Part shown: in pieces, positions 21,308 to 26,336 of the stretch | Position numbering within the stretch: position 1 is the stretch's first letter | How the letters are laid out: each line of letters opens with the position of its first letter | From: Salinilacihabitans rarus | GTDB lineage: Archaea > Halobacteriota > Halobacteria > Halobacteriales > Natrialbaceae | Direction of reading: 5' to 3' | Assembly: GCF_024296665.1 (NCBI RefSeq) | Contig: NZ_CP100762.1 | Span: 3,348,001 to 3,412,000, forward strand | Length of the DNA: 64,000 nucleotides | Notes under the pieces: generated by a model | Seen by the model: only the letters and a program-made list of their open reading frames with translations | What the model was told of the DNA's origin: nothing | The model's database searches: none | Made by a program: the position numbers and the translations under genes

Positions 21308-22294
21308 ATGACCACGGACACGACAGGCGACGGGCGCGAGGAGCGTCCGGCTCGCACACCGGTCGCAGCCGGCGCCGACGAGGGTGCCGGTCGCGGCCGG
21401 CGGGCGAGGGTTGTGACGGACGGGGGCGTAACCGACGTGACGGGCGACGAGGCGGCCGCCGACGAGGGCGAGGGGTCCGAGGAAACGCAAGCGGAAGCCG
21501 AGTCCGCGGGCGCGGAAGGCGAGGACGACGCGGAGTCGGAAGCGGAGACCGAGGAAGAGCAGCCGGAGGACGAAGCCGAGGAGGCCGAAGAGGCCGAGGA
21601 GGCCGAGTCAGAGGAAGGTGAGGAAGGCAAAGAGGCCGAGTCAGAGGAAGGTGAGGAGGCCGAAGAGGCCGAGGAGGGAGAAGAAGCCGGCGAGGGCGAA
21701 GCCGAAGCGGCCGAAGAAGGCGACGAGGGCGCACACGGCGGCGACGCCGAGGACGTCTACGAGAGCGACGAGGCCTCGGGCGTCCTCCACCTCGACCTCG
21801 ACGGCCTGTTCCTCGACCTGCTCGGACTGGAGGTCAACCTCAACGAGGTGACCCTCGACGTGTCGGCCCGCCCGGGCGGGAACAACCTGCTCGGCAACCT
21901 GCTGTCGGCGGTGACGGGCCTTCTCGACGGCGTCGGGTCGCCGCTGAGCGCGCTGACGAACAAGCTCGGCGGGGCGGTGAACCGCGTCCTCGGCATCCTG
22001 CCGGGCGTCGGTGGCGAAGACGGCGAGGAAGGCGAAGCGGGCGACGAGGGAGACGGCGACCCCGGCCTCCTCTCGCGGCTCGGCGGCTGGCTCCGCGGCC
22101 TGCCGGGGGCCGTCGCGGGCTGGTTCCGCCGGCGGCTAGCGGGCCTCGTCGGGCGGCTTCCGCTCGAAGACGTGATCGCGACGATCGTTCGGACGGCGAT
22201 CCAGCAGTTGATCGAGGCCGCGGAGTCGCGAACGGCCGAGGAAGAAGCGCCGGAGGAGGCGGAAGCGCCGTCCGGCGCGGAGGCCGAAGCATGA
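21308..22294 (+). CDS. Glutamate-rich protein with NLLGNLL domain (acidic operon gene 1)
   Basis: 328 residues without a signal peptide. A basic-to-neutral N-terminus (about 50 residues) is followed by an extremely Glu/Ala-rich repetitive stretch (about 52-142, EEAEEAEE-type). A folded domain follows at about 150-210 (LHLDLDGLFLDLLGLEVNLN, then SARPGGNNLLGNLLSAVTG). I recognise this pattern from bacterial secreted proteins of unknown function. The C-terminus has an amphipathic glycine-rich helix (GGWLRGLPGAVAGWFRRRLA) and an acidic tail. The ATG at 21308 follows a TATAG box at 21251 and a short leader. Its stop overlaps the next start (ATGA), so the genes are translationally coupled. Function unknown. 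Confidence 0.75.
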   Translation: MTTDTTGDGREERPARTPVAAGADEGAGRGRRARVVTDGGVTDVTGDEAAADEGEGSEETQAEAESAGAEGEDDAESEAETEEEQPEDEAEEAEEAEEAESEEGEEGKEAESEEGEEAEEAEEGEEAGEGEAEAAEEGDEGAHGGDAEDVYESDEASGVLHLDLDGLFLDLLGLEVNLNEVTLDVSARPGGNNLLGNLLSAVTGLLDGVGSPLSALTNKLGGAVNRVLGILPGVGGEDGEEGEAGDEGDGDPGLLSRLGGWLRGLPGAVAGWFRRRLAGLVGRLPLEDVIATIVRTAIQQLIEAAESRTAEEEAPEEAEAPSGAEAEA

Positions 22295-22758
22295 GCGGGG
22301 AGAGCGAGAGCGCCCAGTCGGGGTCGGAGTCGCTCGTCCAGCGCATCGACTACGAACGCATCGCCGAGAACGTCGACTTCGAGGACCTGCTCGAGGGGAC
22401 CCGATGGGAGGGCGAACTCGACGGCGACGAGCCGACGGGGACGGCCCTCGGCGGGTTGATCGGCGCGATCATCGGCCGGCGGGTCGGCGAGATCCTCGGG
22501 CGGACGATCGGCGAGACGGTGATCGAGGAGATACTCGGGCGCGAGGACGAGGAAGAAGCGGACGAGGAAGAGGGCGAGGAAGAAGAGGCCGAGGAAGAAG
22601 CCGAAGAGAGCGAGACCGAGGAAGAAGAAGGCGAGCAAGCGGAAGGCGAGGAAGAAGAAGGGGACGACGCGGAAGCGGAAGCGAGCGACGAGGAAGCGGA
22701 AGCCGAAGCGGCCGAGGACGGAGAGCGCGAAGAGGGGGAGGACGACGGTGACTCCTGA
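22291..22758 (+). CDS. Glycine-zipper, glutamate-rich protein (acidic operon gene 2)
   Basis: 155 residues in two parts. The first ~85 residues contain a short helix (RIDYERIAENVDFEDLLEG) and a striking glycine zipper, GGLIGAIIGRRVGEILGRTI, in which glycines recur every fourth residue for six turns (about 53-73). The last ~70 residues are almost only Glu, Ala, Asp and Gly, predicted disordered. The zipper region aligns with the start of gene 3, so the two are tandem paralogues. Glycine zippers pack helices tightly and often insert in membranes or oligomerise. The start overlaps the stop of gene 1. Confidence 0.75.
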   Translation: MSGESESAQSGSESLVQRIDYERIAENVDFEDLLEGTRWEGELDGDEPTGTALGGLIGAIIGRRVGEILGRTIGETVIEEILGREDEEEADEEEGEEEEAEEEAEESETEEEEGEQAEGEEEEGDDAEAEASDEEAEAEAAEDGEREEGEDDGDS

Positions 22759-22797
22759 CCCCGTTCCGGCGGCGCGGCCCGCGGGGGGTGAGACGCC

Positions 22798-23457
22798 GTG
22801 AGCGACGAGTCCGGACTTCGGGAGGTCGTCGTCGAGGAGGTGACCGAGCAGGTCGACGTCGGGAGGCTCGTCGACGGCGAGAGCCTGCAAGACCAGTTCG
22901 ACGGCGCGACCGTCGGCGAGTCCGTCTTCGGGCGACTCGGCGAGCGCCTCGGCCGCGAGATCGGCGCGTCCGTCGGCGCGAGCGTCCACGAGGCCCTCGA
23001 ACGCGGCCTCGAAGAGGGCGAGAGCCTCCGGGACCTGCTCGACCACCTCGTCGAGGCGGTCCGCGAGGGGCTTCGAGCCGTGTTCGGGGGCGAGGGCCCC
23101 GGGGACGTTCGCTCGCTCGTCGACGAGACCGCCGAGGCGGCCGGCATCGACGGTCTCGTTCCGGAACCGGAAGCGGACGAGGTGCCGGAGGCCGAGGCCG
23201 AGGAAGCCGCGGAACCCGGAGCCGAGGCGGCCGACGAGGCCCCGGCGGAAGCCGCGGAGATGGCCGAGACCGAGGACGGCCCCTCGGTGGAGGACCTAGA
23301 GGAGTTGCGGACGGAGACGCTCCGGGACTTCCTGTCGATGCTGTCCTACACCGACCTCCAGTCGATCGCGAAGGACCTCGACGTGCGGGCGAACCTGAGC
23401 CGCGAGGAGATGACCGACCGGATCGTCGAGACCGTCGCGGACGGCGGCGAGCAGTGA
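22798..23457 (+). CDS. Glycine-zipper protein with SAP/Rho-N-like C-terminus (acidic operon gene 3)
   Basis: 219 residues starting at a GTG with a GGGGTGAG sequence 6-7 nt upstream. The N-terminal ~70 residues resemble gene 2: a VDVGRLVDGE segment, then GRLGERLGREIGASVGASV with glycine every fourth residue (about 44-62). A Glu/Ala-rich linker follows. The C-terminal ~45 residues (ELRTETLRDFLSMLSYTDLQ, then SIAKDLDVRANLSREEMTDR) look like a helix-extended-helix module as in SAP or Rho N-terminal domains, which often bind nucleic acid; this is inference. It lies 39 bp after gene 2 and 25 bp before gene 4. Confidence 0.75.
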   Translation: MSDESGLREVVVEEVTEQVDVGRLVDGESLQDQFDGATVGESVFGRLGERLGREIGASVGASVHEALERGLEEGESLRDLLDHLVEAVREGLRAVFGGEGPGDVRSLVDETAEAAGIDGLVPEPEADEVPEAEAEEAAEPGAEAADEAPAEAAEMAETEDGPSVEDLEELRTETLRDFLSMLSYTDLQSIAKDLDVRANLSREEMTDRIVETVADGGEQ

Positions 23458-23482: not shown

Positions 23483-24340
23483 ATGAGCGACCCACCGGAC
23501 GAGCGCGCGAGCGAGATTCTGGACGACGCGGCGGCGACCGTCGCGGACCTCCCGCCGGAGGCGGACCCGGAGGGGCTCCGCGACGAACTGGACGACGCGG
23601 ACGAGGACGCCCTGCGCGACTTCGCGGCGGCCGCCCGGGAAGTCGTCGAGGAGAGCGAGCCGGCCGACGTACTCGCGGCGGTCGGACTCTCGGAACTGCC
23701 CGACGGGAGCGAGCCGTCCTCGCTCCCGGAGGCCATCGCCGCGGGCGACCCCGGGAAGGTCGCCGACCTGCGGTCGCTGCTGATCCTCTCGAAACTGGCC
23801 GGCGAGTGGCGCGACGACGAGGCGGTCGGGCAGCGCCTGTCGGAACTCCGGGAGACGCTCGGCGAGCGGGCCGGGCCGTCGGCGCCCGACGAGGGGGAGG
23901 CCGACGCGGAGGGCGACGAGGCCGAGGCCGAACGCGCGGCGGACGAACGCGACGCCGAGGGCGGCGACCTCGAATCGACGCTCCAGTCGGCGATGGACGA
24001 CGCCCTCGGCGGGTTCGGCGACGAGGTCGCGGCCGTCCGGGAGCGTCTGGAGGGGATGCGCTCGGACGAGGGGGAGGGAGCGACCGCGGACGACGGATCT
24101 GCTGACGGGGTGGAGGCCGGAGCCGAGGCGGCGGACGAAGCGCCGACGGCGAAAGCGGAAGCCGAGACGGCCGAGGAGGGCGAGGGCCTCCTCGGCGGGC
24201 TGGGCGACTCGTCGGGGCAGTCCTCGGGCGTCGCCACCATGCACTCGACGGTCGCGCCGTCGCCCTCGAAGCGGGCGGACATGCGCGCGGTCAGGCGCTT
24301 CTCGACGATGCCGAAGCGACACCGGTCGGACGAGGAGTGA
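23483..24340 (+). CDS. Acidic coiled protein with basic C-terminal tail (acidic operon gene 4)
   Basis: 285 residues. The N-terminal ~130 residues are predicted helical and folded (ASEILDDAAATVADLPPEAD; ADLRSLLILSKLAGEWRDDE), followed by disordered Glu/Ala/Asp-rich segments and one helix (LESTLQSAMDDALGGFGDEV). Unlike the other three products, its last ~35 residues are basic and Ser/Met containing (SKRADMRAVRRFSTMPKRHR), a possible docking or nucleic-acid/membrane-binding tail. The start is an ATG 25 bp after gene 3. I recognise no family. Confidence 0.7.
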   Translation: MSDPPDERASEILDDAAATVADLPPEADPEGLRDELDDADEDALRDFAAAAREVVEESEPADVLAAVGLSELPDGSEPSSLPEAIAAGDPGKVADLRSLLILSKLAGEWRDDEAVGQRLSELRETLGERAGPSAPDEGEADAEGDEAEAERAADERDAEGGDLESTLQSAMDDALGGFGDEVAAVRERLEGMRSDEGEGATADDGSADGVEAGAEAADEAPTAKAEAETAEEGEGLLGGLGDSSGQSSGVATMHSTVAPSPSKRADMRAVRRFSTMPKRHRSDEE

Positions 24341-24427: not shown

Positions 24428-24901
24428 ATGACGAGACACGTGAGCGCCGAACAGGTCCGGCGGTGGCTCGACGAGACCGCCGTCCGCGGCGTGACCCACC
24501 ACGACGAGGCGGACGCGGAATTCAACTTTCAGGTCGAACTCTCGCGGCTGCCGATCCACGTCGTCAAGGAGGAGCCGTGGGGGCCGGTCCGGATCGTCGG
24601 CCGGACGGGGTTCGACTCGGACCGGGCGAAGGAACTGCTGTGCGACGACGAGCGCCGCGGCGAGTTGCTCCGCGCGGTCGGGCCGATGCTGGCGGCGACG
24701 CCGGGATTCTACACGTTCCTCGACGAGGAGGGCGCGCCCTGCGAGTTGCGCCACGCGGAGACGATCCAGCTCGAGTACCGCGTCTACCCTGACGGGGCGA
24801 GCCAGCAGACGCTGATGAACGGGGTGATGGCGGTCGGGAAGGGAATGCGGTACGTTCGGTCGGTGATCGTCTCGATGGGGACGGTCGACGACGGCCCGTG
24901 A
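24428..24901 (+). CDS. DUF2299-like conserved protein
   Basis: 157-residue soluble protein. It begins with a helix HVSAEQVRRWLDETAVRGVT, then strands FNFQVELSRLPIHVVKEEPW, and ends with a long helix GMRYVRSVIVSMGTV. It resembles the archaeal DUF2299 family, thought from overall shape to relate to secretion-chaperone-like folds; the assignment is by memory of the pattern and only moderately sure. A CCTTATCC box lies about 25 nt before the ATG, fitting a leaderless transcript. It follows the acidic operon on the same strand (87-bp gap) but probably has its own promoter. Confidence 0.65.
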   Translation: MTRHVSAEQVRRWLDETAVRGVTHHDEADAEFNFQVELSRLPIHVVKEEPWGPVRIVGRTGFDSDRAKELLCDDERRGELLRAVGPMLAATPGFYTFLDEEGAPCELRHAETIQLEYRVYPDGASQQTLMNGVMAVGKGMRYVRSVIVSMGTVDDGP

Positions 24902-24950
24902 CTGCCCGACGGCCGGAACGGAAATTTACGTCGGGGGCCCTACGTGACGT

Positions 24951-25400
24951 ATGATGGACTCCATCCTCGTCGCGACCGACGGCAGCGACACCGCCGGGGA
25001 GGCGGCCGGCTACGCGATCGACCTCGCGGACCGACTCGGGGCGTCGCTGCACGGCATCTCGGTCGTCGAGACCCGGACGGCCTACGACAACGCCATCGTC
25101 GACCCCGAGGAGGCGGAGGCCGCCCTCCGCGAGCGGGCACGCGAGGCGCTGGCTGCCCTCGAGGACGCGGCCGCGGCCGCCGGCGTGTCCGTCGAGACGA
25201 CGGTCGAGCGGGGCGTCCCGCACGAGGAGATCATCGCGTACGCCGAGGCCCACGACGTCTCGACGATCGTGGTCGGATCGAGCGGGCGGTCGTCGTTCAG
25301 GCGGGCGCTGCTGGGGAGTACGGCCGACGCGCTCGTGCGGCTGTCGCCGGTACCGGTGCTGGTGGTCGGGGACCCGGTCGAGCGGGCGCCCGACCCGTAG
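24951..25400 (+). CDS. Universal stress protein (UspA family)
   Basis: 149 residues with the complete Usp fold: the opening strand and aspartate (SILVATDGSDTAGEAAGYAI), then HDVSTIVVGSSGRSSFRRALLGSTADAL, which carries the ATP-binding G-x2-G-x9-G-S/T motif, and a closing strand PVPVLVVGD. It is therefore likely an ATP-binding type stress protein. Two ATG codons are adjacent at 24951; the first is 20-25 nt from a TTTACG-type box. It is the first of three Usp-type genes in 1.4 kb. Confidence 0.93.
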   Translation: MMDSILVATDGSDTAGEAAGYAIDLADRLGASLHGISVVETRTAYDNAIVDPEEAEAALRERAREALAALEDAAAAAGVSVETTVERGVPHEEIIAYAEAHDVSTIVVGSSGRSSFRRALLGSTADALVRLSPVPVLVVGDPVERAPDP

Positions 25401-25441
25401 CGGGCCGAACTTTTACCTCCGCCGTCCGCACACAGTGGGGC

Positions 25442-25888
25442 ATGACGTTACTCGCCCCGTTCGACGGCACGGCCCTCTCGCGGGCCGCGCTCGAACGCGC
25501 CGCGGAGTTCGCCGACCTGACCGACGACGACGTACTCGCGCTGACGGTCGTCCCCGACGACCGCGACTACGCGGTCGAGCGCGGCTGGATCCCCGAGGAC
25601 GTGTCGTTCGACCCGGAGCGGGTCGCGGCCGCGATGGAGTCGCAGGTCCACGACATCGCCCCCGAGGCGGCGTTTCGCAGCGAGATCGTCGATTCGGACG
25701 AGCCGACGGCGACGGCGACGACGAACGTCGTCAGGGAGATCCGCCGGGTCGCCGCCGCGGTCGACGCCGCGGTCGTCTTCGTCGGGACGGAGAACGCGGG
25801 CGGGGTAACCGCGCCGCTGTCGAGCGTCGGCGCCCCGGTCGTACACGACCCGAGCTACGACGTCTACATCGTCCGCCACGCCGACTGA
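25442..25888 (+). CDS. Universal stress protein-like protein, divergent
   Basis: 148 residues with a Usp-like order of strands and helices: LLAPFDGTALSRAALERAAE at the start, a central VREIRRVAAAVDAAVVFVGT, and VGAPVVHDPSYDVYIVRHAD at the end. The glycine-rich ATP loop is weak (ENAGGVTAPLSSVG), so nucleotide binding may be lost. A TTTTAC box precedes the ATG by about 30 nt, suggesting separate transcription from the upstream usp gene (41-bp gap). Confidence 0.8.
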   Translation: MTLLAPFDGTALSRAALERAAEFADLTDDDVLALTVVPDDRDYAVERGWIPEDVSFDPERVAAAMESQVHDIAPEAAFRSEIVDSDEPTATATTNVVREIRRVAAAVDAAVVFVGTENAGGVTAPLSSVGAPVVHDPSYDVYIVRHAD

Positions 25889-25901
25889 ACCGCGGCGACG
25901 C

Positions 25902-26336
25902 TCACCTGACGATCGTGACGGGGACCGTCGACCGGCGGGCGACCCGCTCGGCGACGCTCCCGAGCAGTAGCCGACGTACCCCGTCGCGGCCGTGGCTGCC
26001 GATCACGACGTGGTCCACGTCGCCGCCCCGGACGCGCTCGACGATCGCTCGCGCGACGTTGCCCGCCAGCGCCTCGGCCCCTATCTCGCGGTCGTGGTCG
26101 GCGGCGATCGAGCGCGCCTCCTCGAACACCGTCTCGGCGGCCTGTCGGCCCCGTTCGATGTGGGCCTCGAACTCGTCGGCGTCCACGTCGGTCGCCGTCG
26201 TGTGGGTACCCATCTCCGCCGGATCGACGACGTAGACGACGGTGAGCGTCGCGTCGGGGTACGTCTCGCAGGCGAACTCGAGGGCCGCTCGCGCGGGGTC
26301 GGAGCGATCCATCGGGACGAGGACGTGTTTGCCCAT
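25902..26336 (-). CDS. Universal stress protein (UspA family)
   Basis: 144 residues, a typical Usp: HVLVPMDRSDPARAALEFAC at the start, a DVDHVVIGSHGRDGVRRLLLGSVAERVAR stretch containing the ATP-binding G-x2-G-x9-G-S motif, and STVPVTIVR at the end. It is convergent with the previous usp gene; the two stops are 13 bp apart. Cytoplasmic; probably involved in stress resistance as in other archaea, though direct roles are rarely known. Confidence 0.93.
   Translation of the reverse strand: MGKHVLVPMDRSDPARAALEFACETYPDATLTVVYVVDPAEMGTHTTATDVDADEFEAHIERGRQAAETVFEEARSIAADHDREIGAEALAGNVARAIVERVRGGDVDHVVIGSHGRDGVRRLLLGSVAERVARRSTVPVTIVR

Follow-up and report, generated by a model that had tools for sequence, protein, structure and literature searches.

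Gas vesicles serve as an ultrasound tool and as a model of protein shells filled with gas. Among the Gvp proteins closest to the locus presented here are GvpC and GvpI: according to the part of the study cited, Hfx. volcanii has no gvp genes of its own, and its transformants form long, weak vesicles without GvpC and very long ones without GvpI (PMC7688916). In Natrialba magadii, the cited portion of a 2012 report describes GvpC, D and E as absent and GvpI as extended at its N-terminus by more than 200 residues (PMC3403918). A 2015 review called the 11-gene vac regions found in several Natrialbaceae sufficient for gas vesicles; the species named there are Vac-, and whether their clusters are silent is given as not known in the section cited (PMC4390858).

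The window analysed, by which is meant the whole stretch of 64,000 nucleotides from Salinilacihabitans rarus, a member of the Natrialbaceae (genome G000), holds a four-gene operon, g1-g4. Given that this operon is inherited together with gvp genes although it lies far from them, it probably encodes overlooked gas-vesicle helpers. No paper in the open-access literature was recognised as describing it, and no Pfam or NCBIfam family scores above its cut-off for g1, g2 or g3.

Layout of the operon and paralogy of g2 and g3

The first open reading frame, g1 (21308-22294, plus strand), encodes an acidic N-terminal tail, a strand-rich core and a helical C-terminus, and its real start may lie further downstream than that of the annotated frame. 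The conserved core (HLDLDGLFLDLLGLEVNLNEVTLDVSA..GNNLLGNLLSAVTGLLDG; 21782-21931, plus strand) is predicted to form strands and then a helix, with a mean column identity of 70% (alignment A6). The stop of g1 and the start of g2 overlap in ATGA. As in the original prediction, g2 and g3 occupy 22291-22758 and 22798-23457, both on the plus strand. The former has an ATG start and encodes 155 residues, comprising an N-terminal zipper domain and an acidic low-complexity tail (43% D+E); the latter has a GTG start and encodes 219 residues, comprising an N-terminal zipper domain, an acidic linker and a C-terminal Rho_N/SAP-like three-helix domain (residues 164-216; 23287-23445, plus strand; mean column identity 75%). 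The fourth gene, g4, follows at 23483-24340 on the same strand. Downstream of the operon (24428-26336) come one DUF2299-like gene and three that are UspA-like, of which the last is on the minus strand; UspA matches are also found in many related loci.

Of 31 Natrialbaceae loci spanning 25 other genera, 30 have the order g1-g2-g3-g4; the exception, L091, is without g1 and has the end of g4 out of frame. Among 53 named loci, g1 is present in 50, g2 and the g3 zipper in 51 each and g4 in all 53; the full operon is found in 50, and the remainder are two loci at a contig end and one, L105, without g1. Of 121 Natrialbaceae genomes, g3 was detected in 106 and the N-terminus of g2 in 105. One fragmented assembly, G101, has g3 and no g2 match. 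A contig search with a single g2 sequence gave no match and was redone with profile A5.

The recurrence of glycine at every fourth residue stands as originally described, as does the run of four in g3 (residues 48-60), and the run in g2 was found to be one of seven (residues 50-74, spaced i, i+4; 22438-22512, plus strand) rather than six. The zipper of g3 (22915-22977, plus strand) consists of Gly40, 48, 52, 56 and 60 with Phe at 44, a position at which its relatives mostly carry Gly. A seven-glycine run did not arise in any of 20000 shuffles of the first 85 residues of g2; the g3 zipper taken alone is only modest evidence, since 307 of 20000 shuffles equalled its four glycines in a row. Across 32 aligned relatives of each protein, Gly50, 54, 58, 62, 66 and 70 of g2 and Gly40, 48, 52, 56 and 60 of g3 are kept in all 32, and Gly74 of g2 and Gly44 of g3 in at least 90%.

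Profile alignment of g2 with g3 by hhalign gave a probability of 97.6% and an E-value of 3e-12 over 60 columns. The stretch preceding the zipper gave 3e-6 by itself, a score as high as this being reached in none of 100 column shuffles, and the crossed controls for this comparison gave 0.06 and 0.5. When the non-glycine columns of g3 were shuffled with the glycine columns fixed, the best of 100 shuffles reached only 2e-4. Because of the pre-zipper stretch and the test with fixed glycines, in which shuffled profiles never came near the real ones, the similarity is more than compositional, and the comparison identifies g2 and g3, at the level of sequence, as true paralogous zipper proteins. When the g2 N-terminus was searched against the window's own genome, g3 ranked next after g2 itself (E 0.011); a third zipper place, G000:C1:2979066, was not significant (E 0.33).

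The proposal of duplication with divergence inside one operon is supported by loci of other haloarchaeal families and by the zipper tree. Two outgroup loci, L160 and L161, each have one zipper gene, which carries the C-terminal domain of g3, and zipper genes number two in L158 and three in L157. In the tree, which is built on a short alignment and leaves many forks unresolved, the g2-position and g3-position proteins of several families group apart (moderate support, 87/97), and the L160 and L161 proteins branch outside the g3 group on the g3 side of the midpoint root. The simplest reading is that the ancestor was a single protein with zipper and C-terminal domain, which was duplicated, the C-terminal domain then being lost in g2.

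Predicted structure of the zippers, the g3 C-terminal domain and g1

The glycine repeat had been read as that of helix-packing or membrane-inserting zippers. Helix packing is supported by inference. In the AF2 model of g3 (mean pLDDT 74.2) the zipper forms a single helix from residue 36 to 73 (pLDDT of the block about 79-94), followed by further helices, the disordered acidic linker and a confident three-helix C-terminal domain. In the tetrad of g2, register 0 is almost entirely Gly, 97% of register 3 is I/V/L and register 1 is mostly E/R/A. Membrane insertion fares differently: the highest 19-residue Kyte-Doolittle means are 1.38 for g2 and 1.28 for g3, none of the 32 members of either family attains 1.6 over 19 residues, and the transmembrane reading was rejected on this hydropathy. 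Since no member reaches a transmembrane level, the zippers are expected to be soluble, most likely of an amphipathic helix-packing type, and it is plausible that g2 and g3 form a hetero-oligomer. They have the GxxxGxxxG repeat in common with Gly-zipper_Omp (PF13488) and Rick_17kDa_Anti (PF05433), from which they differ in being amphipathic, charged and not transmembrane. The g2 proteins also score below the gathering level of these families, the window's g2 reaching 17.3-17.9 bits against 25 bits; PF13488 is matched at E<=0.1 in 28 of 32 g2 members (best 2.3e-5).

The C-terminal domain of g3 weakly resembles the Rho N-terminal and SAP (helix-extended-helix) domains. The similarity lies in size and three-helix arrangement (Z 5-6, rmsd 1.8-2.6 A), with VIA Z 5.9 and 1.8 A over 45 residues for the Rho N-terminal domain and VIA Z 5.6 for SAP, whereas the Pfam cut-offs are not reached: SAP_new25 scores 15.2 bits on the window's g3 against a cut-off of 26.3, and Rho_N is matched in seven of 32 g3 members at E<=0.1 (best 0.0024). 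A Foldseek search with the g3 model returned nothing under E 1, and PDB profile searches with the g2 zipper domain and the g3 C-terminal domain returned no significant match.

Similar searches with g1 gave no relative: none of 31 members matched Pfam at E<=0.1, a PDB profile search with the core found nothing significant, and Foldseek with the AF2 model, the core of which is of low confidence (mean pLDDT 61.8), found nothing under E 1. A distant relationship between the core and GvpA/J/M, which look alike by eye (LLGLEV.. and LVGIEI..), was rejected, given an hhalign probability below 1% and E-values of 0.09-0.38. The core was not found in plasmid records, and when it was sought outside the haloarchaea, 12 of the 236 genomes of a phylum sample matched, all 12 within the same order. 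A possible occurrence of the core motif in bacterial proteins found no confirmation in these searches. Very long forms of g1 exist in L157 (7517-10039, 840 aa) and L159 (7030-9303, 757 aa), the former with repeated segments that, judged by eye, are taken to resemble domains of the carboxypeptidase-regulatory type. Six outgroup clusters also contain a small zinc-ribbon-like gene of about 112 residues with two CxxC pairs, which is outside the standard gvp set and either separates gvpO from g1 or neighbours g1; it is found at L160:10458-10796, with equivalents in L157, L158, L159, L161 and L166.

Association with gas-vesicle genes

The link of the operon to gas vesicles is strong and begins with g4, which aligns over 242 columns with the family of long GvpI proteins encoded in haloarchaeal gvp clusters (hhalign probability 99.5%, E 4e-23). 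The C-terminal tail of g4 (..HSTV..RADM..RFSTMPK; 24224-24328, plus strand) matches that of GvpI at 1e-9. In Natrialbaceae and other haloarchaea, the long forms of GvpI have the same N-terminal domain as g4 and likewise the paired ST-M/V-P tail. The gene that occupies the gvpI position in these clusters has its tail, with the same pair of motifs, in common with Halobacterium GvpI (E 2e-5 for the GvpI of L160); compared directly, g4 and Halobacterium GvpI gave a non-significant 0.068. Given that the window's own genome keeps a separate GvpI gene between gvpH and gvpJ (L177 11597-12538), g4 is identified by profile as a paralogue of GvpI and not as GvpI itself, and differs from it in being an additional copy, encoded together with g1-g3 in an operon unlinked to the gvp cluster.

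In the window's genome the gvp cluster, consisting of gvpO, gvpA and then F-M, lies 1.5 Mb from the operon, which is itself outside any gvp cluster; gvpC and gvpN were searched for in this genome and neither was found. The two are likewise unlinked in most Natrialbaceae, with two loci, L093 and L180, in which the operon adjoins gvp genes. By comparison, 11 of the 18 loci from other haloarchaeal families have a gvp cluster within 19 kb of the homologues (L157-L162, L166, L168, L170, L173 and L174), the rest being L169, with a GvpI-like gene only, and six without any. In both L168 and L170 the gvp operon itself contains g1 and a zipper gene, placed between gvpH and gvpI and on their strand. For L160, Pfam or NCBIfam matches confirmed the identities of gvpA, O, F, G, H, J, K and L. 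On a plasmid of Haladaptatus halobius, a 'hypothetical protein' between gvpO and gvpF (L184:6838-7455) matches the zipper weakly (E 1e-5) and is possibly a diverged zipper member.

Co-inheritance points the same way. Among the 121 Natrialbaceae genomes, 106 have g3 and gvpA, two (G006 and G068) have gvpA without the module, 13 have neither and none has g3 alone (Fisher 1e-15, a value that ignores phylogeny and is taken over genomes that are not independent). All 13 genomes without gvpA, which is present in the other 108, are without both g2 and g3. By genus label these 13 comprise two genomes of g4 (both incomplete), one of g6, one of g7, three of g9, five of g10 and one of g14 (incomplete); as they fall into few genera, independent losses number fewer than 13. 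In the genera labelled g6 and g9, gvpA and g3 are missing together. Across 292 Halobacteria genomes the g1 core was found in 95, every one with gvpA, that is in 95 of 119 gvpA-positive and none of 173 gvpA-negative genomes. Zipper profile A3 matches 106 genomes, of which 97 have gvpA and nine do not; the latter matches are weak (E 7e-5 to 8e-4) and are taken as generic zipper matches. The control family, archaellin, shows no such association, being found in 12 of the 13 gvpA-negative and 72 of the 108 gvpA-positive Natrialbaceae genomes, so the genomes without gvp genes are not merely poor or incomplete. Archaellin and gvpA tend to be complementary (Fisher p 0.06; 36 genomes have gvpA alone and one of 121 has neither), a hint of a trade-off between swimming and floating; a search for archaellin in the window's genome gave no match.

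GvpC resembles the module in being acidic, haloarchaeal and associated with gas vesicles, and occurs where the module is absent; a shared fold is not claimed. With Halobacterium GvpC as query, homologues were found in 11 of 24 gvpA-positive genomes without g1 and in none of 56 with g1, the search having covered 56 of the 95 g1-positive genomes, that of the window included. The 11 GvpC clusters, one of which (L197) is at a contig end, have no match to g1-g3, and eight of them have GvpD and GvpE. Nine further clusters outside the Natrialbaceae have neither module nor GvpC, and none of these has GvpD or GvpE. Given these nine, together with G006 and G068, neither the module nor GvpC is indispensable to gvp genes. 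In a tree of GvpL, F, G and K the module clusters are spread and the GvpC clusters form one clade (100/99), so that the mutual exclusion of module and GvpC represents one evolutionary event, and a recurrent swap in which the module replaces GvpC is unsupported. In the same tree the gvp cluster of G006 (L179), one of the Natrialbaceae genomes in which the module is missing, falls with the GvpC clade and not with its own family, which suggests lateral replacement of that cluster.

Possible roles of the operon

It is considered likely that g1-g4 constitute a gas-vesicle accessory module which in the Natrialbaceae usually lies apart from the main gvp cluster. Weighing against this are the Vac- state of the Natrialbaceae species named in the review cited above and the gvp-bearing genomes and clusters without the module. 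A regulatory module has also to be weighed, in which the C-terminal domain of g3 would bind nucleic acid and, with g2, control the gvp cluster in place of GvpD and GvpE. The resemblance to Rho N-terminal and SAP domains would suit this, as would the finding of GvpD and GvpE in eight of the 11 clusters of GvpC type and their absence from all nine that have neither GvpC nor module. Natrialbaceae clusters are described as without these two proteins in the part of the literature cited (PMC4390858), and around the cluster of the window's genome neither is evident on inspection of the gene content. Given, however, that the domain similarity lies under the Pfam cut-offs with Z below 8, that helix-extended-helix folds serve in protein docking too and that neither g1 nor the GvpI-like g4 has a regulatory look, such control is quite unlikely. 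Rather less improbable, yet still unlikely, is a scaffold for clustering or tethering, in which zippers prone to oligomerise and acidic, low-complexity, disordered tails would form a condensate or mesh that bundles vesicles; acidic tails are, however, usual in haloarchaea. The role would be like that of GvpU of Bacillus without relationship to it, and this proposed role is the only likeness to GvpU/GvpT, which act in vesicle clustering and are given as exclusive to Bacillota in the passage cited (PMC10903477).

The co-occurrence with gvp genes could also be coincidental, the operon having another role, such as in general stress, and being lost with gvp through shared ancestry or lifestyle. The UspA-like and DUF2299-like genes after the operon and the shared ancestry of the losses in the genus labelled g10 would agree with this, but homologues lie within gvp operons, g4 is paralogous to GvpI, g1 is absent from every gvpA-negative genome and the archaellin control runs the opposite way, which together make coincidence very improbable. 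A membrane pore or anchor formed by g2 and g3 is similarly remote: the sub-threshold Pfam glycine-zipper matches speak for it, and the hydropathy, below transmembrane level in all 32 members of both families, and the frequent charge in register 1 speak against it.

For the accessory module preferred here, a mechanism can be put forward tentatively. The zipper helices of g2 and g3 would pair through their Gly/aliphatic face to give a soluble hetero-oligomer bearing long acidic tails and, on g3, the Rho_N/SAP-like domain for docking; g4 would plug this assembly into the GvpF/L/H complex via its GvpI-like tail, and the strand-rich core of g1 would touch the GvpA shell. Jointly, g1-g4 may shape, stabilise or tether vesicles in cells without GvpC. 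This raises the possibility, which the balance of the evidence does not yet favour, that haloarchaea have two gas-vesicle systems: the one already studied, with GvpC, and a more widespread one that would build or harden the vesicle with g1, the zipper pair and one or two GvpI-type proteins. Part of the latter would be kept by the Natrialbaceae on an unlinked second operon, so that the '11-gene' clusters, seemingly complete yet reported as Vac-, would never have been tested as the whole system. If a second conserved locus is indeed co-inherited with the 11-gene clusters, then a part of the gas-vesicle system has been overlooked, and g1 and the zippers would be added protein families and candidate shell, size or clustering factors.
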